Of a stretch of DNA of 64,000 nucleotides, positions 8,398-44,568 are shown piece by piece (position 1 is the first letter of the stretch; the number at the start of each line of letters is the position of its first letter). A program made the position numbers and the translations under genes. Origin of the DNA: Clostridia bacterium (GTDB lineage Bacteria > Bacillota > DSM-521 > Neomoorellales > SLTJ01). Location: contig SLTJ01000028.1 in the NCBI GenBank assembly GCA_004347685.1, positions 124,001 to 188,000 on the forward strand, read 5' to 3'. A model generated the notes under the pieces. That model was given only the letters and a program-made list of their open reading frames with translations, did no database searches and had not been told where the DNA came from.

Positions 8398-8426
8398 TTG
8401 CTTGAACGGGCGAGAGGCGTTATAAT
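8398..8426 (+). promoter_or_regulatory. Promoter of the exported-protein gene
   Basis: TTGCTT at 8398-8403 and a perfect TATAAT at 8421-8426 with a 17-bp spacer, 45 nt before the TTG start at 8472. Confidence 0.6.
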
Positions 8427-8471
8427 ATACCCACCAGGGGTATTAGACCAAGTCTTCCGGGAGGGGTCTTT

Positions 8472-8981: not shown

Positions 8982-8989
8982 ATGTAAAG

Positions 8990-10039
8990 CTATACGGCCA
9001 CCCTGGCCTGCTGCCAGGCCTCCATGGCCAGCCGGCTCAGCAGGTAGGCCAGGAGGGACTCCGCGCCCTGGTTGGGGTTGACTCCGTTGGCCTGCAGCCC
9101 GTCACAGCAGCCACCGGTGGTTTCGTCATACAAGGGTAAGCCCTGGATGTTCTGGCCGAGGAACCAGTTAAAGGCGGTTTCGGCCAGGTGCCGGTATTGC
9201 CTTTGCCCGGTGACGTGGTGGGCGACGGTATAGGCCTGCACCAGGCAGCCGGCATCCACCGGCTGCTGGTCAAACAAGGCCATTTTCCTTCCCTTGGGAT
9301 ACCACCCGTTATTGCCGACCAGGTTAAAATAGCCGTCGGCCCATTGTACCCGGGTAAGAAACTCCAGCGTGCTCTTACCGGCCTGCAAGTACGCGCTAGC
9401 TTCGGTCACTTCATAGGCCAGGAGCAGGGACGTGGGCAGGATGGCGTTGGCATATACAAGGATATCCTCAAACCACTCCCAGTCCCGGTCGCGGGTGGCC
9501 TGGTAGGCGGCCACCAGGTCATCGGCCAGGCTTCGTATCAGCCGCGACGTGGCCGCGTTTTCACCCAATCCTTGGTAGTAATAGCTCAACCCCAGCAAGG
9601 TATAGGCCATGCCGCGCAGCGACCGCAATCTGGGGACGGCGGGCAGGGCCTTTTCGATCATGGCCTGGCTGGCCTGGCCCAGAAAGTGGTCGGGCATGGC
9701 CACGGTGGCGTAACCGCAGGCCCACAGGGAGCGGCCAAAGGAATCATCAGACCCGTCATCATCTAGATAGCGACGCTGGTAGTCAAAGAAATTATGGAAC
9801 CAGCCGGAAGGTTTCTGCGCCACGTGCAGGAAGGCCATGTAGGTTTCGGCCAGTTTTAAGAACTCGGGCTCGGGCCGGTAACGGTAAGCCTGCAGGCTTA
9901 CCAGCAGGGCCCGGGCATTGTCGTCAGTAGTATAGCCAGTCTGCCGGTTGGGTAAAGCGTAGGTAGCGTGTTGAATAATCCCGGTATCGTCGGTCAGGCG
10001 GAGAAGGTGGTTAAGCTTAAACTCTGGAAGACCAGTCAT
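8990..10039 (-). CDS. Six-hairpin (alpha/alpha-barrel) glycosidase-like protein
   Basis: The ATG at 10039 has AGAGGAG 8 nt upstream; another ATG at 10045 is too close to it. The 349-residue protein shows the (alpha/alpha)6 pattern of glycosidase-related proteins, with GYTTDDNARALL near residue 35, FHNFFDYQRRYLDD, SFGRSLWACGYA and GCCDGLQANGVNPNQGAESLLAY near the C-terminus. In some genomes such domains are fused to, or follow, a GT4 glycosyltransferase; here the GT4 gene lies 16 bp upstream in the same operon. The substrate cannot be read from the sequence; the divergent GDP-mannose genes suggest a mannose-containing glycan or oligosaccharide. Confidence 0.7.
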   Translation of the reverse strand: MTGLPEFKLNHLLRLTDDTGIIQHATYALPNRQTGYTTDDNARALLVSLQAYRYRPEPEFLKLAETYMAFLHVAQKPSGWFHNFFDYQRRYLDDDGSDDSFGRSLWACGYATVAMPDHFLGQASQAMIEKALPAVPRLRSLRGMAYTLLGLSYYYQGLGENAATSRLIRSLADDLVAAYQATRDRDWEWFEDILVYANAILPTSLLLAYEVTEASAYLQAGKSTLEFLTRVQWADGYFNLVGNNGWYPKGRKMALFDQQPVDAGCLVQAYTVAHHVTGQRQYRHLAETAFNWFLGQNIQGLPLYDETTGGCCDGLQANGVNPNQGAESLLAYLLSRLAMEAWQQARVAV

Positions 10040-10055
10040 AACCATATCTCCTCTT

Positions 10056-11213
10056 TCACGTGGCCAGGGGCTGGGGGAAGGCTTCCAGTGCTTCTCGGAA
10101 CAACCCGGTATAGCCGCGGCCTACCTCCGGCCATAGCATCTGGCGGCCGAATTCCCAGGCGCTGGCCTGCATTCTCTCCCGGTCCTGCGGATGCTCCAGG
10201 AGAAAGTTAATGGTGTCTGCCAGTTGCTGGCTGTCCTTGAACGGTACCAGGCATCCACGGCCGTCGGCGAGGATTTCGCGGGCGTAGAAATAAGGGGTGG
10301 AGATGACCGCTTTCCCCATGCTGACGGCGTAAGCCAGGGTGCCGCTGCAGATCTGCTCCTCACTCAGATATGGAGTGACATAAAGATCGGCCAAGGTGAG
10401 ATACTCCAGCAGTTCTTCTTTGGGTAAATAACGGTTCACGAAAAGGACATGGTTGGCGAGATCAAGCTCGTTTACCAAACCCTCCAGGTATTCCCGGTAA
10501 GCTTCGCCGCTATGTCTTTTCACCTCCGGGTGGGTTTCGCCTAGGATCAGGTAGAGAACCTCTGGGTGCCTGGCCACGACCTGCGGCAAAGCGCTGATGG
10601 CATACTCCAGGCCCTTCCCGGGATGGATAAGGCCAAAGGTGCATAATATGGTACGGTCATGGAGGTTATACTTGTCTTCCAGACTTCTCCGGGTGCAGTT
10701 GAGCGCTGGCGGGACGCCATGGTGGATAACCCTGATCTTGCTGGGGCTGATCTTATACTGGCGCACCAGTATCTCCCGGCCCTTTTCGGCCGGAACCACC
10801 ACCGCCGAGCAAGTGCTGGCGATTTCCTGAAGCAGGCTACGTTGGTGGGTGTGCGGCTGCACCAACACCGTATGAAAGGTAGCCACCGCAGGCTTTTGTA
10901 GCGAGGCCAGCAGGGTAAGGAGATAGCTGCCGTTACTGCCTCCGTAGATGCCGTATTCGTGCTGGATCAGCACCAGATCTATGGGTGCCCGGTTTATTGC
11001 CTGAGCTGCGGCCAGATACGACTGGCGGTCTTCCTGGACTATCTCCCGCCATACGCGCGTTGGATATGCGTACGAAACTCCTCTCCTGCTTACCGCCACT
11101 ACTTTGACCGGAGGAAATTTCCCCAGGCCGTCAATCGCCTCAACCAGATCCTCAGCAAAGGTTGCCAACCCACACTGCCGAGGGGGGAAGGTACTCACAC
11201 AGGCTACCTGCAT
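10056..11213 (-). CDS. GT4-family glycosyltransferase
   Basis: A 385-residue GT-B fold enzyme. The N-terminal half begins with STFPPRQCGLATFAEDL, which matches the glycine-rich acceptor-side loop of GT4 enzymes. The C-terminal half carries CTFGLIHPGKGLEYAI (nucleotide-sugar binding) near residue 210 and YLSEEQICSGTLAYAVSMGK near 300, the E-x7-E-like region contacting the donor. ATG 11213 follows AGGAGGAAAGGAA. It transfers a sugar from a nucleotide donor, plausibly GDP-mannose given the divergent operon (inference). It is likely cytosolic or membrane-associated. Confidence 0.85.
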   Translation of the reverse strand: MQVACVSTFPPRQCGLATFAEDLVEAIDGLGKFPPVKVVAVSRRGVSYAYPTRVWREIVQEDRQSYLAAAQAINRAPIDLVLIQHEYGIYGGSNGSYLLTLLASLQKPAVATFHTVLVQPHTHQRSLLQEIASTCSAVVVPAEKGREILVRQYKISPSKIRVIHHGVPPALNCTRRSLEDKYNLHDRTILCTFGLIHPGKGLEYAISALPQVVARHPEVLYLILGETHPEVKRHSGEAYREYLEGLVNELDLANHVLFVNRYLPKEELLEYLTLADLYVTPYLSEEQICSGTLAYAVSMGKAVISTPYFYAREILADGRGCLVPFKDSQQLADTINFLLEHPQDRERMQASAWEFGRQMLWPEVGRGYTGLFREALEAFPQPLAT

Positions 11214-11805: not shown

Positions 11806-13239
11806 TTGACTGAAGCAGAAATCCAGTTTGGCACAGACGGGTGGCGGGCGGTCATCAGCGATACCTTTACCATGGCCAATGTCCGTCGGGTGGCCCAGGC
11901 CTTGGCCGATTATGTGGTGTCCGGGCCGCATTCCACGCCGGTGGTGGCGGTGGGTTACGATACGCGGTTTCTTTCCCGGCGTTACGCCGAGGAGGTGGCC
12001 GGGGTCCTCGCCGCCAATGCCATAGGGGTGTTGTTCTCCGCCAGGGCGACTCCCAGCCCGGTGGTTTCTTTCGTCGTCAAGCACAGGCAACTGGCCGGAG
12101 GCGTGATGATTACGGCCAGCCACAATCCACCCGAATACAACGGCATAAAATTCAAGGGGGACTACGGCGGCTCGGCCCTGCCGGAAATGACCAGCCAGAT
12201 CGAAGCCAGACTCCAGGCCAATACCGCTGAAGGCCGGGAACCTTTGACCACCGATTTTTCCAGGGCCGTGGGCCGTGGCCAGGTCGAATTCATTGACCCC
12301 CGGCCGGAGTATTTTGCGCGCCTGCAGGAACTGGTAGATATGGAGAAGGTGCGCAGCCTGAAGTTGCCGGTGGTGATTGACCCCATGTACGGTGCGGGTC
12401 AGGGCTACTTGCGGGAGTTTCTGGCAGAGGACGGCCTCAAGGTGGTTGAGATCCGGGGGGAAATCAACCCGGCCTTTGGCGGCGTGAACCCGGAACCCAT
12501 CGCCAAGAACCTGGCCGCCCTGGCCACGGCCGTTCGGGAAGCGGGGGCTGTTGCCGGTTTTGCCACTGACGGCGATGCCGACCGGGTAGGGGCCATGGAT
12601 CACGAGGGCAACTTTGTCGACTCCCACCGCATTTTTGCCCTGCTGCTCCAGCACCTGGCTGGCCGCCGCGGCTGGGAGGGGGACGTGGTGAAAACCTTCT
12701 CCACCACGCAGATGGTGGATATCTTGGCCGGTCGTTACGGCCGCAAACTGCACATCACCCCTGTCGGTTTTAAATACATTTGTGAGTTGATGCTGGCCCA
12801 ACCCATTCTCATCGGCGGCGAGGAAAGCGGCGGTATCGGCATCACCCGGCACATCCCGGAGCGGGACGGGCTTTTTAACAGTCTTCTGCTCATGGAAATA
12901 ATGGCTGCTACCGGAAAGAACCTGCAGGAGCTGATTGTCGAGCTGATGGCCGCAATCGGCCCTCATTATTATGATCGCGTTGACCTGCACCTGGGACCGG
13001 AGGAGGATGAGGATTTTCGCCAGCATTTTGTCGAACGCCTGCCGGATCGCCTGGCCGGGCAGGTGGTGGAGCGATGCGATCGGCTCGACGGGGTCAAGCT
13101 TTTCCTGGCCGGGGGGCGGTGGATCCTGTTCCGGGCCTCGGGGACCGAACCGGTGGTGCGGGTTTACGCCGAGGCCCCTTCGCCAGATGAAGTGGCGGAA
13201 TTGCTGGCGGCTGGCCGGGAATTACTGGAAAGGCGGTGA
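11806..13239 (+). CDS. Phosphomannomutase/phosphoglucomutase (alpha-D-phosphohexomutase)
   Basis: TTG 11806 lies 5 nt after GGAGGGG and gives 477 residues. The four active-site elements are intact: the phosphoserine loop TASHNPPEYNG near residue 104, the metal loop TDGDADR near 256, the sugar-ring loop GGEESGG near 343, and the phosphate-binding RASGTEP near 444. The enzyme interconverts hexose 6-phosphate and hexose 1-phosphate in the cytosol. First gene of an operon with an isomerase cupin and a mannose-1-P guanylyltransferase, so mannose is the likely substrate, though dual specificity is common in the family. Confidence 0.9.
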   Translation: MTEAEIQFGTDGWRAVISDTFTMANVRRVAQALADYVVSGPHSTPVVAVGYDTRFLSRRYAEEVAGVLAANAIGVLFSARATPSPVVSFVVKHRQLAGGVMITASHNPPEYNGIKFKGDYGGSALPEMTSQIEARLQANTAEGREPLTTDFSRAVGRGQVEFIDPRPEYFARLQELVDMEKVRSLKLPVVIDPMYGAGQGYLREFLAEDGLKVVEIRGEINPAFGGVNPEPIAKNLAALATAVREAGAVAGFATDGDADRVGAMDHEGNFVDSHRIFALLLQHLAGRRGWEGDVVKTFSTTQMVDILAGRYGRKLHITPVGFKYICELMLAQPILIGGEESGGIGITRHIPERDGLFNSLLLMEIMAATGKNLQELIVELMAAIGPHYYDRVDLHLGPEEDEDFRQHFVERLPDRLAGQVVERCDRLDGVKLFLAGGRWILFRASGTEPVVRVYAEAPSPDEVAELLAAGRELLERR

Positions 13240-13242
13240 ACC

Positions 13243-13581
13243 ATGCGCATCGTAGATAAGCCTTGGGGCCGGGAAATATGGTGGGCGGTCACAGACAGGT
13301 ATGTGGGCAAGATCCTGGAGGTCAAGGCCGGCCAGGCCCTCAGTCTCCAGTATCACCGGGAGAAACTAGAGACCCTCCTCTTTTACCAGGGAGAGGGGAT
13401 TCTGGTTCTAGGGGAGGAGATGATGGCGGTGCACCCCATGGAAGCGTATACTATTCAGCCCGGGACCAGGCACCGGATCACGGCGACCAGCGATCTGACC
13501 GTTTTTGAGGTTTCTACCACCCAGGTGGATGATGTGGTGCGGCTGGAGGATTTGTACGGTCGGACGGAAGGGCAAAGTTGA
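13243..13581 (+). CDS. Mannose-6-phosphate isomerase-type cupin
   Basis: A 112-residue single-domain cupin matching the C-terminal isomerase half of bifunctional type II PMI-GMP enzymes: KPWGREIWW at residues 5-13, SLQYHREKLETLLFYQGEG with the metal-binding His/Glu, and IQPGTRHRITA. It converts fructose-6-P to mannose-6-P in that context. The partner guanylyltransferase is encoded separately just downstream, so the fused enzyme of other bacteria is split here. It starts 3 bp after the mutase stop. Confidence 0.85.
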   Translation: MRIVDKPWGREIWWAVTDRYVGKILEVKAGQALSLQYHREKLETLLFYQGEGILVLGEEMMAVHPMEAYTIQPGTRHRITATSDLTVFEVSTTQVDDVVRLEDLYGRTEGQS

Positions 13582-13594
13582 GGGTGCGAGGGGG

Positions 13595-14734
13595 ATGGGT
13601 TTGACCAGGGTAGCAATTATCATGGCAGGAGGCCGGGGGGAACGTTTCTGGCCGCTTAGCCGGGAGCACTTGCCCAAGCAGTTCTTGCGCCTGGCCGGTT
13701 CCGGCACCATGCTGCAGGATACGGTAGCCCGGGTACAATCCCTGGTTTCACCGGCCAATACTTACGTGATAACCGGGGCCAGGTTTGCCGGCCTGGTACG
13801 GCAACAGGTGGAAATACCGGCGGCCAACATTCTTCTGGAACCACAGGGACGGGATACGGCTCCGTGTGTCGGTCTGGCCACGGCGGTAATTCGGCACCGG
13901 TTTGGGGACGACGACCCGGTGGTGGTTGTTATCCCGGCCGACCACCTGATTCCTGATACCGCGGCCTTTATTGCCGCCGTGGACACAGCCGTGGCCTGGG
14001 CTGAACAGCATGATGCCCTGTTAACCATAGGCATACCTCCTACCCGGCCGGAAACCGGCTACGGTTACATAAAGTACAGTCCGGGGAGTGCCCTGTCGCC
14101 AGCGGGGGTTGGGAGCGACCACCCGGTGTACCAGGTGGAAAAGTTCACCGAGAAACCGGACTACGATACGGCTTTACAGTTTATCCGCGCGGGCCATTAC
14201 CTCTGGAACAGCGGCATGTTTATCTGGCGGGCCTCGGTGATCTGGGAGGCCATGGCCAGGTACTTACCGGATGTTTATCAGGGGTTGCAAGAAATTGCGG
14301 CTGCGGTTGACACCCCTTCCTTTGCCGGCGTGGTGGAGGGGGTTTTCCCAACTCTAGAAAAGACCTCTATTGACTTCGGCATTATGGAGAAGGCGGATAA
14401 CGTCTATGTCGTGCCGGGAAAGTTTGGCTGGGATGACGTGGGGGTTTGGTCAGCCCTGAGCCGGGTTTACCAGGCCGACGCTGATAACAATGTCGTGGCT
14501 GGGAGGCCCGGGTCCGGGCCGCCGGAGGGGGAGAGTGTCCCGGTCATTTTCCTTGATTCCAGCGAGTGCGTAGTCTACTGTAATCGGGAGCGATTACTTG
14601 CCACCATAGGAGTTTCCGACTTGATTATTGTTGACACTGAGGACGTGCTCCTGGTGTGCCACAAAAATCAGGAACAGCAGCTCAAACAACTCCTGGCCCA
14701 GCTCCAGACCCGGGGGCTGGAAAGGTATATGTAA
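13595..14734 (+). CDS. manC: Mannose-1-phosphate guanylyltransferase
   Basis: The ATG at 13595 follows GAGGG (about 13580-13584), and a second purine run abuts it; TTG 13601 is an alternative. The protein has 379 residues with the nucleotidyltransferase signature IIMAGGRGERFWPLSR at the start, the FTEKPD loop near 180 and FGIMEKADNVYVVPG near 260 with the catalytic-type Lys. It makes GDP-mannose from mannose-1-P and GTP. The C-terminal isomerase cupin of type II enzymes is missing because it is a separate upstream gene. The stop overlaps the nagA start (TAATG). Confidence 0.92.
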   Translation: MGLTRVAIIMAGGRGERFWPLSREHLPKQFLRLAGSGTMLQDTVARVQSLVSPANTYVITGARFAGLVRQQVEIPAANILLEPQGRDTAPCVGLATAVIRHRFGDDDPVVVVIPADHLIPDTAAFIAAVDTAVAWAEQHDALLTIGIPPTRPETGYGYIKYSPGSALSPAGVGSDHPVYQVEKFTEKPDYDTALQFIRAGHYLWNSGMFIWRASVIWEAMARYLPDVYQGLQEIAAAVDTPSFAGVVEGVFPTLEKTSIDFGIMEKADNVYVVPGKFGWDDVGVWSALSRVYQADADNNVVAGRPGSGPPEGESVPVIFLDSSECVVYCNRERLLATIGVSDLIIVDTEDVLLVCHKNQEQQLKQLLAQLQTRGLERYM

Positions 14735-31657: not shown

Positions 31658-32005
31658 TACCGGCTAGGGGACCAGAAGAACAGATCCAAGGACATCTTAG
31701 TTCGGGTTTATGATTGCTTCCCTGGCCAGTTTGCCGGTGCCGAAGGCAAGAAAGGTGGCCAATTCTATACACCTGGCTGTATCGTGAAGCTCTTGGTGGA
31801 AATGATCGCGCCTTACAAGGGCCGGGTATATTACCCGTGCTGTGGTTTCGGCGGTATGTTTGGGCAGAGTGAAAGGTTCATTGAAGAGCACGGTGGACTC
31901 AAGGGTGATATTTCTATCTATGGACAGAAAACCAACCTCACCACTTGGGGGCTATGCAAAACGAACCTTGCCATCCGCGGCATCGAGGAGATCTTGGGCA
32001 TATGA
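31658..32005 (+). pseudogene. N6-adenine DNA methyltransferase (HsdM) remnant
   Basis: The frame reads [20 protein letters not shown], then [27 protein letters not shown] and GGMFGQS, a clear piece of a type I HsdM. The SAM-binding motif normally reads DPCCGSGGMF; here Asp and Ser are replaced by Tyr and Phe. The N-terminal bundle, the NPPF catalytic motif and the C-terminus are missing. The stop overlaps the ATG of the SNF2 gene by 4 bp. No proper start is visible. Non-functional as a methyltransferase; a short residual peptide starting at ATG 31784 may still be made. Confidence 0.75.
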
Positions 32006-34884
32006 GCACCGACTACCACGCTAAGTACTTCGCCCATGAGCTCACGAAACACTGCGCCTCCGATAGCATTGAGAAACTCGCCACGGTGCTGGCCGATGCG
32101 CAGGTAGACCTAAATCCGCACCAGGTCGAGGCCGCGCTTTTTGCTTTCCGCAGCCCCTTCTCTAAAGGCGCGATCCTCGCCGATGAGGTTGGCCTGGGCA
32201 AGACCATCGAGGCCGGTCTCTTGCTCGCGCAAAAGTGGGCCGAGCGCAAGCGCCGGTTGCTGGTGATCGTACCGGCCAACCTGCGCAAGCAGTGGGAGCA
32301 GGAACTTGCCGACAAGTTCTACCTGCCTTCGGTGATTCTCGAAGCCCGTAGCTTCAACGAGGCCATCCGGGCCGGTAATCTAAACCCGTTCCAGCAGGAC
32401 GTCATCGTCCTCTGCTCGTATCAATTTGCGCGGGCCAAGGAGCCCTATCTCAGGCAGATAGCATGGGACCTGGTCGTGATCGATGAAGCACACCGACTGC
32501 GTAATGTTTACAAGAATACGAGCAAGATTGCCCTTTCCATCAAGCAGGCAGTGGCCCCGTTTCCCAAGGTGCTGCTCACGGCCACGCCGCTGCAAAACTC
32601 GCTGCTGGAGCTCTACGGGTTGGTGAGCATCATCGACGACTTCACTTTCGGTGATCTGAAGAGCTACCGCACTCGCTTTGCCCGCCTCGGTAACGACGCC
32701 GATTTCACCGAACTAAAGGAGCGCCTCAAGCCCCTCTGCAAGCGCACGCTGCGGCGGCAGGTGCTTGAGTATGTGAAGTACACCAACCGCCACGCGCTGG
32801 TACAGGAGTTCGTCCCCTCCGAAGACGAACAGCGGCTCTATGATCTCGTTTCGGACTACCTCCAGCGACCAACACTCTTCGCCCTTCCGGCCAGCCAGCG
32901 CCAGCTTATGACGTTGATACTGCGTAAACTGCTGGCCTCGTCCACCTACGCCATCTCGGGCACACTCGAAGGCCTCGTACACCGGCTAGAAGCAGCGGAG
33001 GCGGCCGCTGCGGCTGTCCATGCGCTGCCGGAGGAACTGCCGCAGGATTGGGAGTCACTCGACGAACTGGCCGACGAGTGGGAGGACGACGACAGCGGTG
33101 CTGCCAAGCCCGAACGGGCACGCCTTACGCCCGGGCAATTAGCGGAACTGCGGCGGGAAATGGAACAGCTTCGGCAATTCCACGCTCTTGCCAAATCGAT
33201 CATCAAGAACTCCAAGGGCGAGGTGCTGCTGACCGCCCTACGCCGTGGTTTCGCCGCCGCCGCCGAGGCGCAGAAGAGCCAGGGCGCCGCAACGCTTCAG
33301 CAAAAGGCCGTTATCTTTACTGAATCCCGCCGCACGCAGGAGTACCTCTTCCGCGTGCTGGAGCAGACCGAGTTCGCCGGCAAGGTTATGCTTTTCAACG
33401 GGACGAACACCGACCCCACCTCCAGGGCCATCTACCAGCGTTGGCTGGAAAAACACGCCGGCACAGACCGCATCAGCGGCTCAACCACGGCAGACATGCG
33501 GGCTGCGTTGGTGGAACACTTCCGCGATGAAGCGACGATCATGATTGCTACGGAAGCGGCGGCCGAAGGTATTAACTTCCAGTTCTGCAATCTGGTGGTC
33601 AACTATGACCTACCCTGGAACCCGCAGCGTATTGAGCAGCGCATCGGCCGTTGCCATCGTTATGGTCAGAAGTTCGACGTGGTGGTGGTCAACTTTCTCA
33701 ACAAGAACAACGCCGCCGACCAAAGGGTGTACGAGCTGCTCGATCAAAAGTTCCGCCTCTTCAACGGCGTCTTTGGCGCCAGCGACGAGGTGCTGGGCGC
33801 GGTGGAAACGGGCGTAGACTTCGAAAAGCGCATCGCCGCCATCTACCAGCAATGCCGCACGCCGGAGCAGATCCAGTTCGAGTTCGACCAGCTTCAGCGC
33901 GAACTGGAGGCCCAAATCGCCGAGAGCCAGCGTGACGCCCGCGAGAAGCTACTGAACAACTTCGACCAGGAAGTCGTTGAGAAGGTGCGCATCCAGAGCC
34001 ATGACGTGCTCGACCGCTTTAACGAGCAGCTTTGGCGGCTCACCCGCTACCTGCTGGCTGGTTATGCGTACTTCGACGACCACGGGTACAGCTTCACCCT
34101 TCACACCAACCCGTTCCCCGGGGAGGCTATCCGCCCGGGGCCGTACCGCATGGGTAAGGACGTACAAGATGCCAACACCTATCGCGTCGGGCACCCGCTG
34201 GCGCAACGAGTCCTGGAATGGGGCAAGAACGTGGTCACGCCGCCGGCGGAGGTGACATTCGATTACGCCGGCAGTGGCAAGAACATTGCCATTCTGAAAC
34301 CCCTGCGCGGCCGACGCGGCTGGCTGGTGTGCGCCCGCCTGACGGTGAGCGCGCTGGAAACCGAGGACCTGCTTATCTTTGCCGGAATCACCGATGACGG
34401 CATGGCGCTAGAAGAAGCGCAGTGCCGCCGCCTCTTCGACCTTTCGGCGACACAGGGCAGCCCGTGCACGCTGCCCGTAGCGGTTGCCGCCGTTCTCGAC
34501 GAAGCCCGGGCGCGCCGCCGGCAAGCGTTGCTGGAAGAAATGACTGACCGTAACGCTCGGTGGTTCGACACCGAAATGGACAAGCTTGATCGTTGGGCTG
34601 AAGACCGCCGCACCTCCCTCAAGGCTGAGCTGGCGGAGCTGGACGAGGCCCTGAAAGAAGCCAGGAAAGGGGCACGGCTGGCTCCCACGCTCCCGGAGAA
34701 GCTGGAGCGGCAGCGCGCCATTCGCACGCTCGAAGGCAAACGTGAGGAAGCCTGGCGCGCCTACGACGTAGCCAGCCGCGAGATAGACCGGCAGAAAGAC
34801 GCGTTACTCGACGAGATCAGCCATCGCCTGGAACAGCGTATTGAGGAGGAGCAACTCTTTACCTTGCGGTGGGCGTTGGTTTGA
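32002..34884 (+). CDS. SNF2-family helicase-like ATPase with C-terminal coiled coil
   Basis: A 960-residue protein starting at ATG 32002, overlapping the HsdM remnant. N-terminal RecA domain: Walker A DEVGLGKT at about 61-68, VIDEAH (Walker B) near 158, TATPLQNS near 193. C-terminal RecA domain: [11 protein letters not shown] near 436 and the motif V/VI block [12 protein letters not shown] to [10 protein letters not shown] at about 517-555. Residues about 830-950 are charged and helical, probably a coiled coil. It should translocate on double-stranded DNA. Such ATPases occur beside methyltransferases in restriction and DISARM-like systems. Head of the intact defence block; composition resembles that of Res. 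Confidence 0.9.
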
Positions 34885-34931
34885 CGACGCGATAACGCTA
34901 CATGAGGGAAACAGAAAAGAAGGTGTACATA

Positions 34932-37900
34932 ATGATTCACAACAGCCTAATCACCGAGAATCAATTAAATGAATGGGTGCGTGGCAACGCCCAGCAAGCT
35001 CAGGGTGTGATTGTTGAGCTTGTCTGGCGTCTGGTAGCGGCGTCGTCCCCCAAACCCAAAGATCGACGCTTCCCGCTTGGTGACAGCATCACACAACCCG
35101 GGCCCGATGGATTCTTGCATACGGACTTCGGATTTGACCCGTTCGTGCCGGATGGGATATCATTCTGGGAAATCGGTACCGGTGATGCTAGGGCCAAAGC
35201 GACATCCGACTACGGGGACCTAACACACGCAACACCTGAAGCGGTAAGACGCAAATCCACATTCGTCTTCGTCACGCCATTATCTGGAAGAAGGGATTGG
35301 CCTTACACATGGAAAGAGGACGCGCAAGCCAGATGGTTGGAGGAGCGGCGCCAGCGAAACGAGTGGCAAGACGTTCGTGTTATCGACGGATCAAAGCTGA
35401 TCGATTGGCTGCATTGCTTTCCTGCTGTTGAACAATGGCTCGCCGTCAAGATGGGCATCCCGTCTCAGCAAGTACAGACCCCGGAGCAGCGTTGGGCTGA
35501 GTTGAGAACCATCGGTGATCCGCCACCTCTCACCCCGCATGTGTTTCTCGCGAACCGTGACGCAGCGTGCGCGAAACTGAATGAGGTGTTTTCTAGGACG
35601 ATACTTCAGCTAAAGATTGATACGCATTTCCCTCGCCAAGTAGCGGACTTCGTCGCTGCTTATGTGGCAACCATGGACGAAGACACCAAGGTCGATGCCA
35701 TCGGTCGCTGTCTCATCATATCGAGTGCCGAAGGCTGGAATGCGATAACGACCCTTCGTGAGGCACATGTTTTGGTTGCAGATTTCGACCTGGATGACGC
35801 TGACTCGGCAGGAACGAGACTCCTCGAAAAAGCCCGTAGGGCAGGTCATGCGGTCATCTTCGCAGGGATGCCCGGCGGTATACCGCACCCGAATCGGGTC
35901 TCCCTCCCAAGTCCGAAGAGTTATCAGATCAAGGAGGCTCTGGAGAAGGCGGGCTACAAGGAGGAACGTGCCCGCATTCTTGCGCAGAAGAGCGATGGTA
36001 ACTTGAGTTCTTTGCTCAGGTGCCTCCAAAACCTCTCATTGATGCCGGAGTGGGCCCAAGGAACAGACGCAGCGGAACTTGCGATTGCAGAGCTTCTGGG
36101 CGCATGGAGGGAACATTCTGAGGCCGACAAAGCAGTTGTGGAGAAACTCTCGGGAAATCCCTATGGGGAGTGGCTCGGAAAGATGCGTGAAATTGCGCTC
36201 CGTCCGGGCACTCCCCTGGTTCAGCGGGACGGTGCGTGGAAAGTTGTTGCGCGCTACGAGGGATGGTATGCGCTTGGACCGAGGATATTTGACGAGCATC
36301 TGGATCGGCTGAAAGAAGTCGCCGTCAGTGTCCTGCGCGAGCGGGATCCGCAGTTCGAGTTGTCCCCTGATGAGCGATACGCGGCCAGTATTCACGGTAA
36401 GGTTCTAACCCATTCACGCTTGCTGCGAAACGGTTTGGCGGAGAGTTTAGCCCTCCTTGGCAGTCATCCCAAAGCGCTTGCATCGTGCTCCTTCGGCAAG
36501 GCTGAGGCGACTGCCGTTCTTGCGGTGCGGGAGGTCCTGGCTGGCGCAGACTGGGTGCTTTGGGCCAGTCTGAACGACCTCTTGCCATTGCTGGCTGAGG
36601 CTGCTCCTGGGGAGTTCCTTGACGCCGTGGAGAACGCATTGAATAGCGATCCCTGCCCCTTCGACACGGTCTTTGCGCAAGAGGGAGCTGGGATTTGGGG
36701 TAGCAACTACATGACTGGTCTACTCTGGGCGCTAGAAACGCTGGCCTGGGATGCTGAGTATCTCACCCGTACGGTCGTTATCCTCGGCGAACTGGCCGCG
36801 AGGGACCCCGGCGGGAACTGGGCCAATCGGCCAGCCAATTCTCTTTCAACAATTCTATTGCCCTGGTTGCCGCAGACTTGTGCGCCAGTACCAAAGAGGC
36901 GGGCCGCTGTGGCGACTCTACTGAATGAGCTCCCGGACGTTGCTTGGAAACTGCTGCTAGCTCTCCTGCCCAGCTCTCATCAGGTATCTTCGGGCTCGTG
37001 CAAGCCGGTATGGAGGGAGATGATTACCGACGATTGGTCGAGAGGTGTAACGCAGCGAGAGTATTGGGAACAGATAGCCGCTTATGCGGAATTGGCGATC
37101 GGTGCAGCAAAACAAGATCTTTCGAGGCTTGCTGAGCTCATTGACCGCCTGGATGATCTTCCGCCTCCCGTACGTGATCAACTTCTCGCTTACCTGCGTT
37201 CGGACACGGTCGTTTCTATGCCGCAAGCAGACCGGCTCCGGTTGTGGACCGAGCTCGTCGATCTGGTTTCAAAGCACAGAAGATTCGCGGATGCCGAATG
37301 GGCCATGAAGCCGGAGGTAGTGGATGAGATCGCTGCGGTCGCCGAATGCCTGGCACCTGATGCGCCAATTTACCGTCACCAGCGGCTCTTCAGTGAGCGT
37401 GATTTCGATCTATTTGAGGAAAAGGGGAATTATGAGGAACAGCGCAAAAAGCTCGAAGAACGACGGCAAAAGGCCGCCAATGAGGTTTTTGCGGCTGGGG
37501 GTGTGGAAGCGGTTCTGGAATTTGCCCAGGCAGTCGAAACGCCCTGGCGCGTAGGCGTTACCTTCAGTATGATAGCATCGAATGATGCTCAGGGAAAGAT
37601 ACTTCCGGCGTTACTGGAGTCGGAAACCAAGTCTCTTGCGCAGTTCGCGGGAGGGTTTGTCCGGGGGATGTTTCGGGGGCGGGGGTGGCAATGGGTTGAC
37701 AGCATCGACACGTCTCAGTGGACACCGTCGCAAAAAGGGCAGCTTCTGGCTTATCTCCCGTTTACCCCTGACACTTGGAAACGAGTTGCTCGGCTCCTGG
37801 AAGAGGACGAGTCGCCATATTGGTCCAAAACCAACGCGAACCCCTATGAAGCCGAGGAGGGTCTTGAAAGGGCTGTTGATTGCCTGGTCCAATATGGCCG

Positions 37901-38741
37901 GCCGCATGAAGCGATTAGATGTCTTGAACACTTAAGACACACCAAACGGCCCTTGGATAGTCAGCAAGCCGTCCGTGTGCTTCAAGCAGTGCTTCATTCC
38001 TCAGAAGATGCTCATGCCATGGATGTGCACGCCATTGTCGAGGTTATTAAGGCGCTGCAAGATGACTCGGGCACAAACCCCGATGACCTTTTTCAAATTG
38101 AATGGGCGTTTCTACCCCTTCTCGATCGACACCACGGAGCGGCCCCGAGGCTATTAGAGCAGCGGATGGCCGACGATCCCGCTTTCTTTTGTGAGGTCAT
38201 CCGCACTGTGTTTCGGTCCAAGAAGGAGAAGCACCCTGTTGAAGAACCCACTGAGCAACAGAAAAACATCGCGACGAACGCTTACCGTCTGCTTAGCGAG
38301 TGGAGGACGCCTCCCGGTAGCCAGAAAGATGGGACGTTCAACGGCGCCGCACTGACTGCTTGGTTGGAGGAGGTCAAAGCCGCCTGTGTGGAATCCGGCC
38401 ATTTGGAGGTCGCGCTCACCATGGTTGGTCGTGTCCTCATCTATACCCCGCCTGATCCCGACGGCCTTTGGTTGCATCATTCGGCAGCAGCGGCGCTGAA
38501 TGCCAAAGACGCTAAGGATATGCGGGACGGTTTTCGAACCGAGCTGTTCAACTCACGTGGTGTTCATTGGGTTGATCCAGAGGGTCGAGAAGAGCGGAAG
38601 CTGGCTGAAAAGTATCGGACACAAGCCGAACAGGTCGAGGCCCGCGGATACCATCGTTTGGCCAGTTCCCTAAAAAAGTTGGCCGCCTCCTATGAGCGCG
38701 GCGCTGAACGGCAGGCGTCCGGAGACCCCTTTGATGATTAA
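34932..38741 (+). CDS. 1269-residue protein with PD-(D/E)XK-like N-terminus and large helical body
   Basis: ATG 34932 has AAGGTG 7 nt upstream; ATG 34902 has none. Residues 1-180 look like a Mrr-type nuclease: Glu29 in the first helix, PDG (Asp59 or Asp74), WEIGTG with Glu80, Lys89 in KATSDYGD, then FVFVTPLSGR and KLIDWLHCFPAVEQWL. Residues about 200-400 resemble a STAND-like NTPase module, but I see no Walker A. The rest, to 1269, appears as helical repeats, perhaps a sensor. There is no membrane segment. Gap 47 bp after the SNF2 gene and 87 bp before mod, same strand. GC and codon use are lower than in the flanking genes, suggesting a different origin. Not matched to a named family. Confidence 0.75.
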   Translation: MIHNSLITENQLNEWVRGNAQQAQGVIVELVWRLVAASSPKPKDRRFPLGDSITQPGPDGFLHTDFGFDPFVPDGISFWEIGTGDARAKATSDYGDLTHATPEAVRRKSTFVFVTPLSGRRDWPYTWKEDAQARWLEERRQRNEWQDVRVIDGSKLIDWLHCFPAVEQWLAVKMGIPSQQVQTPEQRWAELRTIGDPPPLTPHVFLANRDAACAKLNEVFSRTILQLKIDTHFPRQVADFVAAYVATMDEDTKVDAIGRCLIISSAEGWNAITTLREAHVLVADFDLDDADSAGTRLLEKARRAGHAVIFAGMPGGIPHPNRVSLPSPKSYQIKEALEKAGYKEERARILAQKSDGNLSSLLRCLQNLSLMPEWAQGTDAAELAIAELLGAWREHSEADKAVVEKLSGNPYGEWLGKMREIALRPGTPLVQRDGAWKVVARYEGWYALGPRIFDEHLDRLKEVAVSVLRERDPQFELSPDERYAASIHGKVLTHSRLLRNGLAESLALLGSHPKALASCSFGKAEATAVLAVREVLAGADWVLWASLNDLLPLLAEAAPGEFLDAVENALNSDPCPFDTVFAQEGAGIWGSNYMTGLLWALETLAWDAEYLTRTVVILGELAARDPGGNWANRPANSLSTILLPWLPQTCAPVPKRRAAVATLLNELPDVAWKLLLALLPSSHQVSSGSCKPVWREMITDDWSRGVTQREYWEQIAAYAELAIGAAKQDLSRLAELIDRLDDLPPPVRDQLLAYLRSDTVVSMPQADRLRLWTELVDLVSKHRRFADAEWAMKPEVVDEIAAVAECLAPDAPIYRHQRLFSERDFDLFEEKGNYEEQRKKLEERRQKAANEVFAAGGVEAVLEFAQAVETPWRVGVTFSMIASNDAQGKILPALLESETKSLAQFAGGFVRGMFRGRGWQWVDSIDTSQWTPSQKGQLLAYLPFTPDTWKRVARLLEEDESPYWSKTNANPYEAEEGLERAVDCLVQYGRPHEAIRCLEHLRHTKRPLDSQQAVRVLQAVLHSSEDAHAMDVHAIVEVIKALQDDSGTNPDDLFQIEWAFLPLLDRHHGAAPRLLEQRMADDPAFFCEVIRTVFRSKKEKHPVEEPTEQQKNIATNAYRLLSEWRTPPGSQKDGTFNGAALTAWLEEVKAACVESGHLEVALTMVGRVLIYTPPDPDGLWLHHSAAAALNAKDAKDMRDGFRTELFNSRGVHWVDPEGREERKLAEKYRTQAEQVEARGYHRLASSLKKLAASYERGAERQASGDPFDD

Positions 38742-38828
38742 CGCTCTTGATGCTAGACCCTCGACGAATCCGTTATTCAAGCCCCCATTAGGCGGTGGGG
38801 CCTGACATGAGATGGAGGCGACGCCTAG

Positions 38829-40775
38829 ATGACTGACCAACCTGAAAAACTCGACCTGCGTTCTTTCGATATCGCCGAAGACAAGCGGCAGGAACTGTTG
38901 CGCCTCTTCCCGGAGGTTCGCACGGAGGGCGGCAAGATCGACTTCGAGCGCTTGAGGCTTGCCCTGGGCGAGACGGTGGACGTGGGTAAGGAGCGCTACG
39001 GCATGAACTGGCCCGGCAAGGCCGACTGTTTCAAGACCATCCAGGTGCCGAGCCTGGGGACCCTGCGGCCATGCCCGGAGGAGAGCGTCAATTTCGACAC
39101 AACCGAGAACCTGATAATCGAGGGCGACAACCTGGAGGTGCTTAAGCTATTACAAAAATCCTATCTGGGCAAAGTGAAGATGATATACATCGATCCGCCC
39201 TACAACACAGGCAACGACTTCATCTACCCCGACAACTATACCGAGTCCTTGCAGACCTACCTGGAATACACCGGGCAGGTGGACGGCAATGGGAAGAAGT
39301 TCAGTACCAATACAGACACCGACGGGCGCTTCCATTCCAAGTGGCTGAACATGATGTACCCGCGGCTGTACCTGGCGAGGAATTTGCTGCGGGAGGATGG
39401 GGCCATTTTCGTTAGTCTTGATGATACCGAATCATCACAACTGCACTTTTTGATGAATGAGATCTTTGGTGAAGAAAACTTTGTTGGTGTTTTCCCTTGG
39501 CGCTCTCGTACCGCCAAGGCAGATGTCCCGTTTGGTGTATCAAAGGACGTTGAATGGGTCATCTCCTATGCAAAACCGGGTTTTTTCGCTGGGCGTATGG
39601 GTGAACGGAAATACTACAAGTCAGAGGACTATAAAGACAGATGGCGGCTGTCAGACCTTACGACAAACAAGACAGCAGAACAACGTCCGAATTCATTTTT
39701 CGTAATGGTCAACCCTAAAACGCAAGAACAATACCCATCTGATCCAACTCGCACGTGGGCCGTTACGCAAGATACATTCTTCGAATACTATCAAAAAGGG
39801 AAAATAGTTTTCCCAGGTGATTATCCCTTCTTAAATATCACCAAACCATATTTTCGTGTTTTTGAAAGTGAAGATAAAGAAAAAGCACTGTTAAAACACG
39901 GGACTGAAGAAGTGCGCATGTCTATTTCCACATACTTGCCCGAGAAGGAAGTTGGCAGAACCGAAGACGGTTCCAAAGAAATCAGGAGCTTGTTTGGAAG
40001 CCAAGTCTTTTCTTATCCAAAGCCGGTTGGGTTACTCCAATTCTTTATCAAAAATACAAGCCAAAAGGACGACATCATCCTTGACTTTTTCGCCGGATCC
40101 GGCACTACTGCTCAAGCCGTCCTCGAGTTGAACAAGCAAGACGGCGGTAATCGTAAGTTTATCCTGGTGCAGCTTCCCGAGCAGCTTGACCCCAATGACA
40201 ACGATCAGAAGACCGCGTCGGACTTCTGCGACTCCATTGGTAAGCCGCGGAATATCGCGGAGATCACCAAGGAGCGCGTCCGCCGCGTCATTAAGAAGCT
40301 GAACGACGAGGATGCCGCCAGGGAGCCTAGCCTGTTCGACGAAAACAGGCCAGAGCAGGACCGCGGGTTCCGCGTCTTCAAACTGGCCGAGTCCAACTTC
40401 AAACCCTGGAACGCCGGGGTGCCGCACGACGAAAAGGTGCTGGCGCAACAGCTCGAACTGCACATCGACCACATCCGCCAGGGGCGGACGCAAGAGGACA
40501 TCCTCTACGAGATCCTGCTTAAGAGTGGCTTCCCGCTCACCGCGCCGGTCGAGAGACTCACACTGGCAGGCAAGACCGTCTACAGCGTGGCGGAGGGCGC
40601 GCTCTTCATCTGCCTGGAGCGGCAGTTGACGCTGGAGCTTATCCGCGCCATGGCTGAGAGGAGACCCGAGCGGGTGGTCTGCCTGGACGAGGGCTTTGCC
40701 GGCAACGACCAGCTCAAGGCCAACGCCGTTCAGGTCTTCAAGACCAAGGGCGTCACCAGCTTCAAGACGGTGTGA
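38829..40775 (+). CDS. Type III restriction-modification methyltransferase (Mod)
   Basis: A 648-residue beta-class DNA methyltransferase, with catalytic DPPYNTG at about residue 122 preceding the SAM motif LDFFAGSGTT at about 417, the order expected for Mod. Between them lies the target-recognition region. The product probably methylates N6 of adenine in an asymmetric site and forms the Mod2Res complex with the downstream nuclease. The recognition region (about 39400-40090) is clearly AT-richer than both ends of the gene, a sign of past specificity exchange. ATG 38829 follows GGAGGCGACGCC, an acceptable site. Confidence 0.93.
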   Translation: MTDQPEKLDLRSFDIAEDKRQELLRLFPEVRTEGGKIDFERLRLALGETVDVGKERYGMNWPGKADCFKTIQVPSLGTLRPCPEESVNFDTTENLIIEGDNLEVLKLLQKSYLGKVKMIYIDPPYNTGNDFIYPDNYTESLQTYLEYTGQVDGNGKKFSTNTDTDGRFHSKWLNMMYPRLYLARNLLREDGAIFVSLDDTESSQLHFLMNEIFGEENFVGVFPWRSRTAKADVPFGVSKDVEWVISYAKPGFFAGRMGERKYYKSEDYKDRWRLSDLTTNKTAEQRPNSFFVMVNPKTQEQYPSDPTRTWAVTQDTFFEYYQKGKIVFPGDYPFLNITKPYFRVFESEDKEKALLKHGTEEVRMSISTYLPEKEVGRTEDGSKEIRSLFGSQVFSYPKPVGLLQFFIKNTSQKDDIILDFFAGSGTTAQAVLELNKQDGGNRKFILVQLPEQLDPNDNDQKTASDFCDSIGKPRNIAEITKERVRRVIKKLNDEDAAREPSLFDENRPEQDRGFRVFKLAESNFKPWNAGVPHDEKVLAQQLELHIDHIRQGRTQEDILYEILLKSGFPLTAPVERLTLAGKTVYSVAEGALFICLERQLTLELIRAMAERRPERVVCLDEGFAGNDQLKANAVQVFKTKGVTSFKTV

Positions 40776-40783
40776 GGGGGGCA

Positions 40784-41593
40784 ATGATTATGCGCAAAGA
40801 TATGCAGCCTTGGGCAGGCGACATTCTTCTTTATGCAACTGAGGACGGAGCTGCGCGGATCGAGGTTTTTTTTCAAGACGAAACATTTTGGTTGACCATG
40901 AACCGCATGGCCGATTTGTTTGGCGCCACTAAGCAGGCAATTAGTTATCATCTTCAGAGGATATATGAAACTAACGAGTTACAGCGGGAGGCAACTGTCA
41001 AAGAAATTTTGACAGTTCAAGTAGAAGGTGGCCGCGAAGTATCCCGTAAACTTGAGTATTACAACCTGGACGCTATCATCGCCGCCAAGGATGCCGAGAT
41101 CACCCAAACCTTCTTCAAGACGGTGCAGAACAAATTGCATTGGGCCATTACCGGCCAAACGGCGGCGGAAATCATCGCCGGGCGGGCTGGCGCGGACAAG
41201 GCAAACATGGGATTGACCACGTGGAAGAATGCACCCCACGGTAAGATACTGAAGTCCGATGTGTCCATTGCCAAGAACTACCTGTCAGAACCGGAGATCA
41301 AGGAGCTCGAGCGCATCGTCACCATGTTTTTGGACTACGCTGAAAATCAGGCGGCGCGGCAGATTCCAATGCGCATGGAGGACTGGGTTAACAAACTCGA
41401 TGGCTTTTTGCAGTTCAACGAGTACGACATTCTGACCAATGCCGGTAAGGTTTCCCACGAAGTGGCCCGGCGGCTGGCTGAGGACGAATACGCGAAGTTT
41501 CGTGTAATCCAGGACCACGATTATGAGAGTGATTTCGAACGAGCAGCGAAGAAAATTACTGCGAAAATCCGGCGGAAGAAGGAAGATAGTTGA
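40784..41593 (+). CDS. RhuM-family protein, internally shortened
   Basis: It starts at ATG 40784 or 40790 just after GAGGGGGG, giving about 269 residues. The N-terminus (WLTMNRMADLFGATKQAISYH) looks like a DNA-binding segment, and the C-terminal half (NMGLTTWKNA, DVSIAKNYLSEPEI, MRMEDWVNKLDGFL, ILTNAGKVSHEVA) is typical RhuM. After YYNLDAII the familiar VGYRVNS...FRIWA block and what follows are absent; the frame is kept, so about 60-70 residues seem to be deleted compared with members I recall. RhuM proteins are common beside restriction systems, with no established activity. Only 8 bp follow mod, and the stop overlaps res. Confidence 0.8.
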   Translation: MIMRKDMQPWAGDILLYATEDGAARIEVFFQDETFWLTMNRMADLFGATKQAISYHLQRIYETNELQREATVKEILTVQVEGGREVSRKLEYYNLDAIIAAKDAEITQTFFKTVQNKLHWAITGQTAAEIIAGRAGADKANMGLTTWKNAPHGKILKSDVSIAKNYLSEPEIKELERIVTMFLDYAENQAARQIPMRMEDWVNKLDGFLQFNEYDILTNAGKVSHEVARRLAEDEYAKFRVIQDHDYESDFERAAKKITAKIRRKKEDS

Positions 41594-44568
41594 AGATTCA
41601 ATTCGACGCCAACCAGCAGTTCCAACTCGACGCCGTCGCTGCCGTCACCGACCTCTTCGCGGGCCAACCGCAGGGCGCACCGGAGTACGCCGTCATCAAC
41701 CTGGGCGGGTGGGGCGGGATGTTCGCGGGGCAGGACCGCACCGAGCTGGGCGTGGGTAACCGGCTGCTCTTGGACGAAGAAAAGCTGCGGCAAAACACCC
41801 GCATGGTACAGCTACGTAACGACATCGAGGTGGCCGACCCGGCCGCGCCCCTGGAGGCATGGGAGCTGTTCGACACCCCGGCCAACCAGGCGCGGCGCTG
41901 CCCGCATTTTTCGGTGGAGATGGAGACCGGCACGGGCAAGACCTACGTCTACCTGCGCACCATATTTGAGCTGTCGCAGCGCTATGGCTTCTCCAAGTTC
42001 GTCATTGTAGTGCCAAGCGTAGCCATCCGCGAGGGCGTGCTCAAGAACATCGAGATCACCGCCGGGCATTTCCGTGCCCTCTATAACAACATGCCCTTCG
42101 AGCACTTCGTCTACGACGCCAAAAAGGTCAACCGCCTGCGGCAATTCGCCATCAGCAACATGCTGCAGGTTATGGTCATCAACATCGACGCCTTCCGCAA
42201 GAACTTCACCGGCACCGAGGAGGAGCAGAAAAGCAACGTCATCTACAAGGAGAGCGACAGGCTCTCCGGTCGCCAGCCCATCGAGTTCGTGCAGGCGGCG
42301 CGGCCCATCGTCATCATTGACGAGCCGCAAAGCGTGGACTCCACGGATAAGTCCCAGGAGGCCATCAAGGCGCTCAACCCGCTGTGCACCCTGCGCTACT
42401 CCGCCACCCACCGCAACCAGTACAACCTGGTCTACCGGCTCGACCCGGTGCGCGCCTTCGAGCTCAAGCTGGTGAAGCAGATCGTGGTGGCCAGCGCCGC
42501 GGCCGAGGGCGCGGCCAATGACGCCTTCGTGCGCGTAGAACAGATCGACTACAAGAAGGGAATCAAGGCCAAGCTGCGCATCCACGTGCAGACGGCCGAC
42601 GGGCCGAAGGAGAAGTCGGTTACGGTCAAGCATGGCGCCGACCTTTATGCGCTCTCCAACGAGCGGGCCAACTACCGTGATGGCTTCGAGGTGGCCGAGA
42701 TCAACGCCGAACCTGGCAGCGAGTTCATCCGCTTCTCCAGCGGCCGTACCCTGCGACTGGGTGAGGAGATGGGCGGCCTGCGCGAGGACTTATGGCGCGC
42801 CCAGATCAAGCACACCATTAAGCGGCATCTGGAAAAGGAGCTGCAAGTACAGGGGCGCGGCATTAAAGTGCTGTCGCTTTTCTTCATCGACCGCGTGGCC
42901 AACTACCGCGACTACGACGAAACGGGCCGGCCGGTGCCGGGTAAGTTCGCCCAAGCCTTCGAGGAGGAACTGGCGGCGCTAGCCAGGGAAGAACGTTACC
43001 GGGACCTGGCGTGGCTCCGGGCGCCGGTGGAGAGGCTGCACAACGGCTACTTCGCCCAGGATAAGAAAGGGGTGCTCAAGGACACCCGCGGCGACACCCA
43101 GGCCGACGACGAGGTCTACAACCTGATCATGAAGGAGAAGGAGCGCCTGCTCTCCCTTGACGAGCCACTACGCTTCATCTTCAGCCACTCCGCGCTGCGC
43201 GAGGGCTGGGACAACCCCAACGTCTTCCAGGTCTGCACGCTCAACGAAACGAAAAGCGCGGTCAAGAAGCGGCAAGAAATCGGCCGCGGGCTGCGCCTGC
43301 CGGTGGACCAGGATGGCCGGCGGGTTTTTGATGAATCGGTGAATAAGCTCTACGTCATGGCTAACGAGAGCTACGAGGACTTTGCCCGTACTATGCAAAC
43401 CGAGTACGAGGAAGACTGCGGCGTCACCTTTGGCAAGGTACCTATTACGGCCATTGCCAAACTGGCGCGGGTGGTCGACGGTGCAGATAAACCCATCGGG
43501 CGTCCGGCTGCCGAGGCGATTCGTGATGCGTTGGTGTCACAGGGGATGCTTGATACGGATGGGCGGATACAGCCCGCCTTCGATCCCAGGCGCAAGGACT
43601 TCAAGTTGGAACTGCCGGAGGCGCAGCGCGACCTCACACCCGCCGTGATCGACCTGCTTTCCAGCTACCAGATCCAGCGACATATCCGCCGCGAACGCGA
43701 CGACGGCCCCAACCGGCTCAAGAAGGAAGTCACCCTCAGTCCCGAATTCCAGGCCCTTTGGGAGCGCATCAAGCCCAAGACTACCTACCGGGTGGAATTC
43801 GAGACAGAGACCCTGGTGCGCCATGCCGTGGAAGCGATCAAGCGCATGGAGCATATTGAGAGGCCACGGATTCGCGTAGCCGCCGGGCAGCTCGGTATCG
43901 AAAAGGGCGGGATCACCACTGCCGCCGTAAGCGTGGCGGAGGAACGGGTGGAGTACGGCAGCCGTCCCGTTCCCGATATTCTCGCCTACCTCCAGAACGA
44001 AACCGAGCTGACCCGTTCAACGCTGGTACGCATCCTCAAGGAATCCGGTCGGCTAGCGGAGTTTTTCAACAACCCGCAGCGGTTCATGGACACGGTAGCG
44101 TCCATTCTCAAATGCGAGCTGCACCGGCTGCTGGTGGACGGCATCAAATACGAGCGGATTGATGGTATCGGGGCCGCGGCGGAATGGGAGATGCTGCTCT
44201 TCAAGAACGAAGAGCTGATCAACTACCTTACAGCCCTGCAGGTGAATAAGTCGGTTTATGAGTATATAGTGTATGACTCGGAAGTGGAGCGCGAGTTCGC
44301 CCGGCGACTGGACGAGCGGGAGGACATCAAGCTCTTCGTGAAGCTGCCCGGCTGGTTCAAAATCGATACACCAGTCGGCGAGTACAATCCCGACTGGGCC
44401 ATCGTCAAGCACGACGGCCAGGCGATCTATCTGGTGCGCGAGACCAAGGGTACCCGCGACTTCCTAAAACTGCGTACCAGCGAGGCCGACAAGGTACGCT
44501 GCGGAAAAAAGCACTTCGAGGCGCTGGGCGTGCCGTTTGCGGTGGCGGTGACCGCGGAGGAAGTGTGA
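41590..44568 (+). CDS. Type III restriction enzyme (Res): SF2 helicase with C-terminal nuclease
   Basis: TTG 41590 overlaps the RhuM stop by 4 bp (TTGA), with GGAAGATAG as a possible ribosome binding site; 992 residues. Helicase motifs: METGTGKT at about 110-117, IIDEPQ near 242, RYSATH near 262, FSHSALREGWDNPNV near 529 and EIGRGLRLP near 559. A C-terminal PD-(D/E)XK nuclease has NPDWAIV near 932 and YLVRETKG near 946. Res uses ATP to signal along DNA and cuts near two convergent unmethylated sites, with Mod providing specificity. All catalytic motifs look intact. Confidence 0.92.
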   Translation: MKIQFDANQQFQLDAVAAVTDLFAGQPQGAPEYAVINLGGWGGMFAGQDRTELGVGNRLLLDEEKLRQNTRMVQLRNDIEVADPAAPLEAWELFDTPANQARRCPHFSVEMETGTGKTYVYLRTIFELSQRYGFSKFVIVVPSVAIREGVLKNIEITAGHFRALYNNMPFEHFVYDAKKVNRLRQFAISNMLQVMVINIDAFRKNFTGTEEEQKSNVIYKESDRLSGRQPIEFVQAARPIVIIDEPQSVDSTDKSQEAIKALNPLCTLRYSATHRNQYNLVYRLDPVRAFELKLVKQIVVASAAAEGAANDAFVRVEQIDYKKGIKAKLRIHVQTADGPKEKSVTVKHGADLYALSNERANYRDGFEVAEINAEPGSEFIRFSSGRTLRLGEEMGGLREDLWRAQIKHTIKRHLEKELQVQGRGIKVLSLFFIDRVANYRDYDETGRPVPGKFAQAFEEELAALAREERYRDLAWLRAPVERLHNGYFAQDKKGVLKDTRGDTQADDEVYNLIMKEKERLLSLDEPLRFIFSHSALREGWDNPNVFQVCTLNETKSAVKKRQEIGRGLRLPVDQDGRRVFDESVNKLYVMANESYEDFARTMQTEYEEDCGVTFGKVPITAIAKLARVVDGADKPIGRPAAEAIRDALVSQGMLDTDGRIQPAFDPRRKDFKLELPEAQRDLTPAVIDLLSSYQIQRHIRRERDDGPNRLKKEVTLSPEFQALWERIKPKTTYRVEFETETLVRHAVEAIKRMEHIERPRIRVAAGQLGIEKGGITTAAVSVAEERVEYGSRPVPDILAYLQNETELTRSTLVRILKESGRLAEFFNNPQRFMDTVASILKCELHRLLVDGIKYERIDGIGAAAEWEMLLFKNEELINYLTALQVNKSVYEYIVYDSEVEREFARRLDEREDIKLFVKLPGWFKIDTPVGEYNPDWAIVKHDGQAIYLVRETKGTRDFLKLRTSEADKVRCGKKHFEALGVPFAVAVTAEEV

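Follow-up and report, generated by a model that had tools for sequence, protein, structure and literature searches.

The open reading frame at positions 34902 to 38741 of the window, by which we mean the whole stretch of 64,000 nucleotides analysed here, encodes a P-loop-less protein that resembles PD-λ-4A. We consider it probable, at roughly 0.62, that this is a single-gene effector-sensor immune protein and a diverged sister of that anti-phage protein. An effector-sensor layout had already been proposed in the preliminary description of this DNA. Support for it now comes from the remote homology to PD-λ-4A and from the swapping of N-terminal modules among relatives.

Gene and domain organization

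The open reading frame has 1,279 codons for amino acids. The ATG at 34932, which gives a protein of 1,269 amino acids, is the likelier start, because the ribosome-binding-like stretch AGAAGGTG, read from the sequence, lies upstream of residue 11, and because residues 1-13 have a pLDDT below 50 in the AlphaFold2 model. Residue numbers refer to the frame of 1,279 amino acids. Those of the preliminary description are lower by 10, so that its Glu29, Asp59, Glu80 and Lys89 are E39, D69, E90 and K99 here. The features of the gene are:

34902-38741, + strand: open reading frame of the window protein (P-loop-less, PD-λ-4A-like), with the ATG at 34932 as the probable start codon
34944-35516, + strand: PD-(D/E)XK-like nuclease head, residues 15-205 (order of the AlphaFold2 model, D69/E90/K99, profile match, shared head in L066)
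35106-35108, 35169-35171 and 35196-35198, + strand: codons of D69, E90 and K99 in the nuclease head
35517-36056, + strand: pseudo-STAND α/β core, residues 206-385 (Foldseek, alignment with the PD-λ-4A STAND, ω)
35610-35651, + strand: residues 237-250, β1-turn-α1 motif that stands where Walker A would be (consensus A-[DE]-S-x2-E-[AV]-x2-F)
36057-36311, + strand: helical linker and winged-helix-like domain, residues 386-470 (AlphaFold2, alignment with the PD-λ-4A segment)
36312-38738, + strand: α-solenoid (HEAT-like), putative sensor, residues 471-1279 (AlphaFold2, Foldseek, module sharing)

The AlphaFold2 models were built from a family alignment of 24 rows, with plasmid loci left out. The model of residues 1-470 (pLDDT 86.9, pTM 0.85) has a P-loop-type α/β core plus a winged helix at residues 206-470, with the strands of the winged-helix-like domain at β439-442 and β445-448. 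The model of residues 378-1279 (pLDDT 88.3, pTM 0.64) is all-helical, with a solenoid that spans about 800 residues. In Foldseek searches, the first model had Avs3 as its top match, followed by ORC, AAA+ and RFC, and then by Apaf-1, CED-4 and 2qen, and the solenoid half had HEAT-type matches to CAND1 and karyopherins; the TM-scores are low, so these placements are statements about fold class and not close matches. A STAND-like middle at residues 200-400 and some 850 residues of helical repeats had been read from the sequence, and the models agree with both. An effector, a STAND-type core and a repeat sensor are common to the window protein, the Avs (AVAST) proteins and other STAND receptors. 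However, no sequence match between Avs and the window protein was found, and the latter has no Walker A, whereas Avs proteins need an NTP-binding STAND.

The window protein matches no Pfam or NCBIfam model at its cut-off and no named defence system, and PADLOC reports just a weak PD-Lambda-4_A match (E 0.0087). In sequence searches against solved structures, neither the single sequence nor the profiles gave a significant match. The initial impression of a very large protein of no recognised family is therefore apt with one amendment, as the protein falls over its full length in PHROG 18693 (E 1e-161; "unknown function"). This unnamed cluster, which carries no assigned function or domain description, is also matched by the E. 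coli homologue and by the two other architectures described below.

Relationship to PD-λ-4A

PD-λ-4 was identified in E. coli by an experimental selection for anti-phage systems (Vassallo et al. 2022, PMC9519451) and is listed with a P-loop NTPase (PMC10952713). Literature searches retrieved neither a mechanism for PD-λ-4 nor a phage test of any member of the window subfamily. We collected PD-λ-4A-like proteins through the PADLOC models and compared their profile with that of the window family. The hhalign matches reach 99.1-99.4 % over 969-1,117 columns, with E 6e-21 to 2e-21 for those at 99.3-99.4 %, and still 97-98 % when the E. coli lineage is removed from the PD-λ-4A side or from both sides. 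Controls with reversed, column-shuffled or unrelated profiles stay at or below 0.6 %. Matches of single-sequence profiles are weak (4.8 % for L071 alone), so that the claim of homology needs family profiles. Judged from these profiles, the window family is a full-length remote sister of PD-λ-4A.

The window protein and PD-λ-4A (PADLOC PDLC03989-03991) have the same length and the same domain order, with a nuclease head, a STAND-type core, a winged helix and helical repeats. The PD-λ-4A relatives keep Walker A (GLSGVGKT, GISGMGKT or GEAGLGKT), which occurs in each of those that have a complete STAND region, whereas the window family is without it. The heads differ as well, with a PDGG...QAK-type motif in the PD-λ-4A relatives and DG...WExG...KA in the window family. 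In E. coli, PD-λ-4A is followed by PD-λ-4B, while the window gene has SNF2, Mod, RhuM and Res as neighbours and no PD-λ-4B beside it. Another candidate for comparison, the prophage ATPase GiPD474 (PMC12724215), is ParA-like and unrelated to the window protein, and was rejected.

The nuclease-like head

According to DSSP, the secondary structure elements of the modelled head are α30-48, β54-56, β70-74, β85-91, α96-110 and β119-124. This is an αβββαβ core order, with an Asp at β2 and a Glu on β3. D69, G70, E90, K99 and A100 are present in 30/30 relatives, and E39 in 12/30. The canonical Lys of PD-(D/E)XK enzymes sits on β-strand 3. It is missing from this strand in the window family, where position 92 is Gly in 26/30 relatives. 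The invariant Lys99, located at the start of the helix that follows β3, may be the catalytic-type lysine in a migrated position.

The profile of the head matches the PD-λ-4A head at 93.5 % (E 2e-7). In an Azospirillum protein (L066:652-3609), the same head is found on a STAND with an intact P-loop, AGEGGTGKT. Foldseek results for the 470-residue model are dominated by AAA+/STAND matches; for the head there was no significant PD-(D/E)XK fold match, and a single Mrr-domain match was weak (E 0.15). A Pfam scan of 25 nuclease heads did not call a nuclease family. We regard the head as PD-(D/E)XK-like because of its topology, its invariant residues and its remote relationship to the head of PD-λ-4A. 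The Mrr/PD-(D/E)XK-like layout first read from the sequence is thus retained for the topology and for D69, E90 and K99, but not for E39. Structure prediction and fold search, which had been suggested along with it, recovered a degenerate STAND core, but not a high-confidence PD-(D/E)XK match.

Absence of the nucleotide binding site

A Walker A motif had not been visible in the window protein, and the family alignment extends this observation: GxxxxGK[ST] is absent from the site in 30/30 aligned relatives, which come from several phyla. Of the β1-α1 loop, only a short turn is left. Its motif is conserved, and in 30/30 sequences residue 241 is A or T, residue 246 is E, D or Q, and residue 250 is F. 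The PD-λ-4A motif GLSGVGKT aligns with the DTHFPRQV region of the window protein. The Walker B position has no conserved acid (D294 in 7/30). The window protein therefore shares a P-loop-type α/β core and a following winged helix with STAND NTPases, but has a degenerate core without Walker A and B and without a nucleotide site. Since STAND proteins generally have a P-loop, the economical reading is that it was lost from an NTP-binding ancestor, and we infer this direction of change. In the tree of the C-terminal module, PD-λ-4A is present only as a long outgroup branch.

The pseudo-STAND core has an ω of 0.13-0.18 in comparisons with L001 and L002, as low as elsewhere in the protein, which indicates that it is maintained and not decaying. 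Purifying selection acts over every domain. This selection, together with the invariant catalytic-type residues, speaks against a non-defensive regulator or an inactive relic, and so do the exchange of N-terminal effectors and the mobile or defence-island context of the genes. We consider such a role very improbable, even though HTH-fused relatives are annotated as transcriptional regulators and IS3 disrupts the E. coli copies that rank highest.

Relatives and exchange of N-terminal modules

Searches of genomes, plasmids, viral contigs and whole-genome data identified relatives in Pseudomonadota, Bacteroidota, Actinomycetota, Latescibacterota and the window's own phylum. Relatives with 81-83 % identity are found in two MAGs labelled deltaproteobacterium and Methanosarcinales, which may have been binned incorrectly. 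Relatives are infrequent, with 20/398 genomes in one phylum and 9/398 in that of the window, and several of these are short HTH-only matches. In E. coli, the gene is present, whole or in part, in 204 of 5,426 complete genomes (about 4 %).

The C-terminal module, which starts at residue ~381 and includes the winged helix and the solenoid, also occurs in other architectures. It is 45-53 % identical in proteins that have a different N-terminus and no STAND core (L008, L025-L029), and L032 and L055 are also listed as having the sensor module with the other nuclease-like N-terminus and no STAND. The alternative N-terminal domain, with the pattern NPFSTGGGG...DTDDLIV...QIKHS, may be nuclease-like, as judged by motif. 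In a further architecture, the module is 38-40 % identical in separate short-tailed proteins encoded just downstream of a HetE-N protein. The effector and sensor genes of these pairs are L009:11522-11851 and 11860-14625, and L030:7540-7884 and 7875-10694, with HetE-N called by Pfam in L009 (E 1.5e-40) and by phmmer in L030. In other conflict systems, HetE-N is a swapped effector (PMC8195603). Both pairs carry QNHSGTGDN-like tags at the C-terminus of the effector and at the N-terminus of the sensor, with the shared pattern QNH(S/T)GxGxN, and 0/2,000 shuffles reach the score. The shared tag appears similar to the amyloid signalling motifs that are paired between NLRs and their effectors (PMC8086366). 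In the tree of the C-terminal module, the STAND-less and HetE-N forms are nested inside the proteins with nuclease and pseudo-STAND (a 100/99 clade within a 98/98 clade).

A STAND with an eroded NTP site is also known from iSTAND and iSTAND2 (Kaur et al. 2020, 2021: PMC7159879, PMC8195603), conflict-system proteins that have swapped N-termini like the window family. These are third components of MoxR-vWA ternary systems, whereas in the window family the effector is in the same chain, and neither MoxR nor vWA partner genes were found among the scanned genes adjacent to the window gene. It has been proposed that iSTAND binds nucleic acid (PMC8195603), and by analogy the inactive STAND of the window family could bind nucleic acid instead. 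The protein might then be a direct restriction factor, with the dead STAND and/or the HEAT-like solenoid binding foreign DNA or RNA, the nuclease cutting it, and no protein trigger being involved. Apart from the proposal that inactive STAND modules are nucleic-acid receptors (PMC8195603), the N-terminal Xre/HigA-type HTH of many relatives would fit such a role, but the window clade lacks this HTH, which may serve autoregulation. Moreover, no DNA-binding family was found in the solenoid, and the sensor module persists in proteins that have another domain, or none, in the place of nuclease and STAND (L008, L009, L025-L030), so that sensing seems to lie in the solenoid. We therefore consider direct restriction unlikely.

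Genomic context

The window gene lies in a type III restriction-modification operon, with the following features in its surroundings:

31945-34884, + strand: SNF2/DrmD-like helicase of the host restriction-modification operon (context, not partner)
34866-34872, + strand: GCGGTGG, left junction of the cassette at the 3' end of the SNF2 gene (empty site in L105)
38792-38798, + strand: GCGGTGG, right junction, followed by the SNF2 3'-end leftover GGCCTGACATGA (AGCCTGACATGA in L105)
38829-40775, + strand: type III Mod methyltransferase (context)
40772-41593, + strand: RhuM family protein (context; missing from L105 as well)
41590-44568, + strand: type III Res (context)

The gene is a cassette inserted into this operon, as is evident from the GCGGTGG at both junctions and from the remnant of the SNF2 3' end that precedes Mod. 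In five other genomes, an SNF2 homologue is directly followed by Mod, mostly together with Res, and the gene is missing. One of these operons, in genome G129 (L105), has a near-identical empty site, with SNF2 88-91 % and Res 93 % identical. The SNF2 and Mod matches are 41 bp apart there, whereas the window has 3,956 bp between them. RhuM is missing from L105 as well, with about 14 bp between Mod and Res there. RhuM entered the SNF2-Mod-Res operon in the same way, as the second of two separate insertions. Window positions 39481-40071, in the middle of Mod, have no blastn match to the L105 Mod, which is otherwise 81-86 % identical. This suggests an exchanged target-recognition domain. Next to the empty-site operon, L105:9814-15000 has open reading frames that, by eye, read like CRISPR type III RAMP/Cas10 genes.

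The preliminary description had supposed that ATP hydrolysis was handed to the adjacent SNF2 ATPase. This idea has to be given up. A homologue of this SNF2 was found by blastp beside the gene in 0/36 other neighbourhoods (a few of them truncated or near-duplicates), and the loss of Walker A is family-wide and cannot depend on a partner found only in the window. In the same 36 neighbourhoods, there is no Res homologue and just one 55-residue match to Mod. For these reasons, and because the operon exists without the gene, we see hardly any room for a dedicated component of an SNF2-type III restriction-modification operon that draws its ATPase power from SNF2, even though the window gene follows SNF2 closely and on the same strand. 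Components of DISARM or of type III restriction-modification would be expected to stay linked with a DrmD-like SNF2, Mod and Res, and such a linkage is not seen for the window gene.

Elsewhere, type I restriction-modification-like genes, read from the open reading frames, neighbour relatives in L082 and L093, and Abi, SIR2 and TA genes are found near relatives on plasmids. In the E. coli ssrA island, the gene is adjacent and divergent to PD-λ-4 A/B. This arrangement, and the description in another system of an active STAND paired with an eroded one (PMC8195603), would suit a heteromer in which NTP hydrolysis comes from PD-λ-4A, with the P-loop-less protein as a passive subunit. However, the pairing is seen only in one E. 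coli lineage (L031/L037), and PD-λ-4A proper is absent beside other relatives and in the window neighbourhood. The gene, whole or in part, is present in 204 E. coli genomes, compared to 151 with PD-λ-4A, so that the two look separable. A heteromer half is thus improbable. The E. coli homologue, as at the ssrA integration site of E. coli GE3 (L068), is interrupted by IS3 elements in 12/12 of the genomes listed, whereas the adjoining PD-λ-4 A/B genes are intact in the one genome examined. This contrast hints at a cost of the gene.

Possible mechanism and implications

For the effector-sensor immune protein that we favour, the following sequence of events may be envisaged. The C-terminal α-solenoid, with the winged helix, would bind an invader-derived signal, and binding would shift the contact among the solenoid, the winged helix and the P-loop-less STAND core. 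This change could release or assemble the N-terminal PD-(D/E)XK-like nuclease, which would then cut nucleic acid and so stop the infection. As the nucleotide site is gone family-wide, the switch would depend on the binding of a ligand and on a change of conformation or oligomeric state, and not on NTP exchange. Phage defence, the activity and target of the nuclease, the ligand of the solenoid and the nucleotide-free activation are all presumed in this scheme.

A wider view is more tentative, and we would put it at somewhat below even odds. The family may represent a widespread class of NLR-like receptors that work without nucleotide, in which the conserved turn replaced the P-loop of a PD-λ-4A-like ancestor. 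A nested branch would then have swapped the nuclease-STAND half for another nuclease-like domain, or for HetE-N acting in trans through the short shared tag, while the solenoid was kept. The recurrence of the sensor half in fusions or pairs with other killing domains suggests that this immune receptor has no need of ATP.

The usual account of STAND/NLR receptors treats them as NTP switches. Here, the architecture and the selection on it have been kept, while the nucleotide site has been dropped in every sampled relative. Together with its active sister PD-λ-4A and with the STAND-free cousins that have the same sensor, the family forms a natural series for questions about the role of NTP binding. 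The proposed scheme also offers a testable function for an uncharacterised family that occurs in E. coli at the frequency given above.
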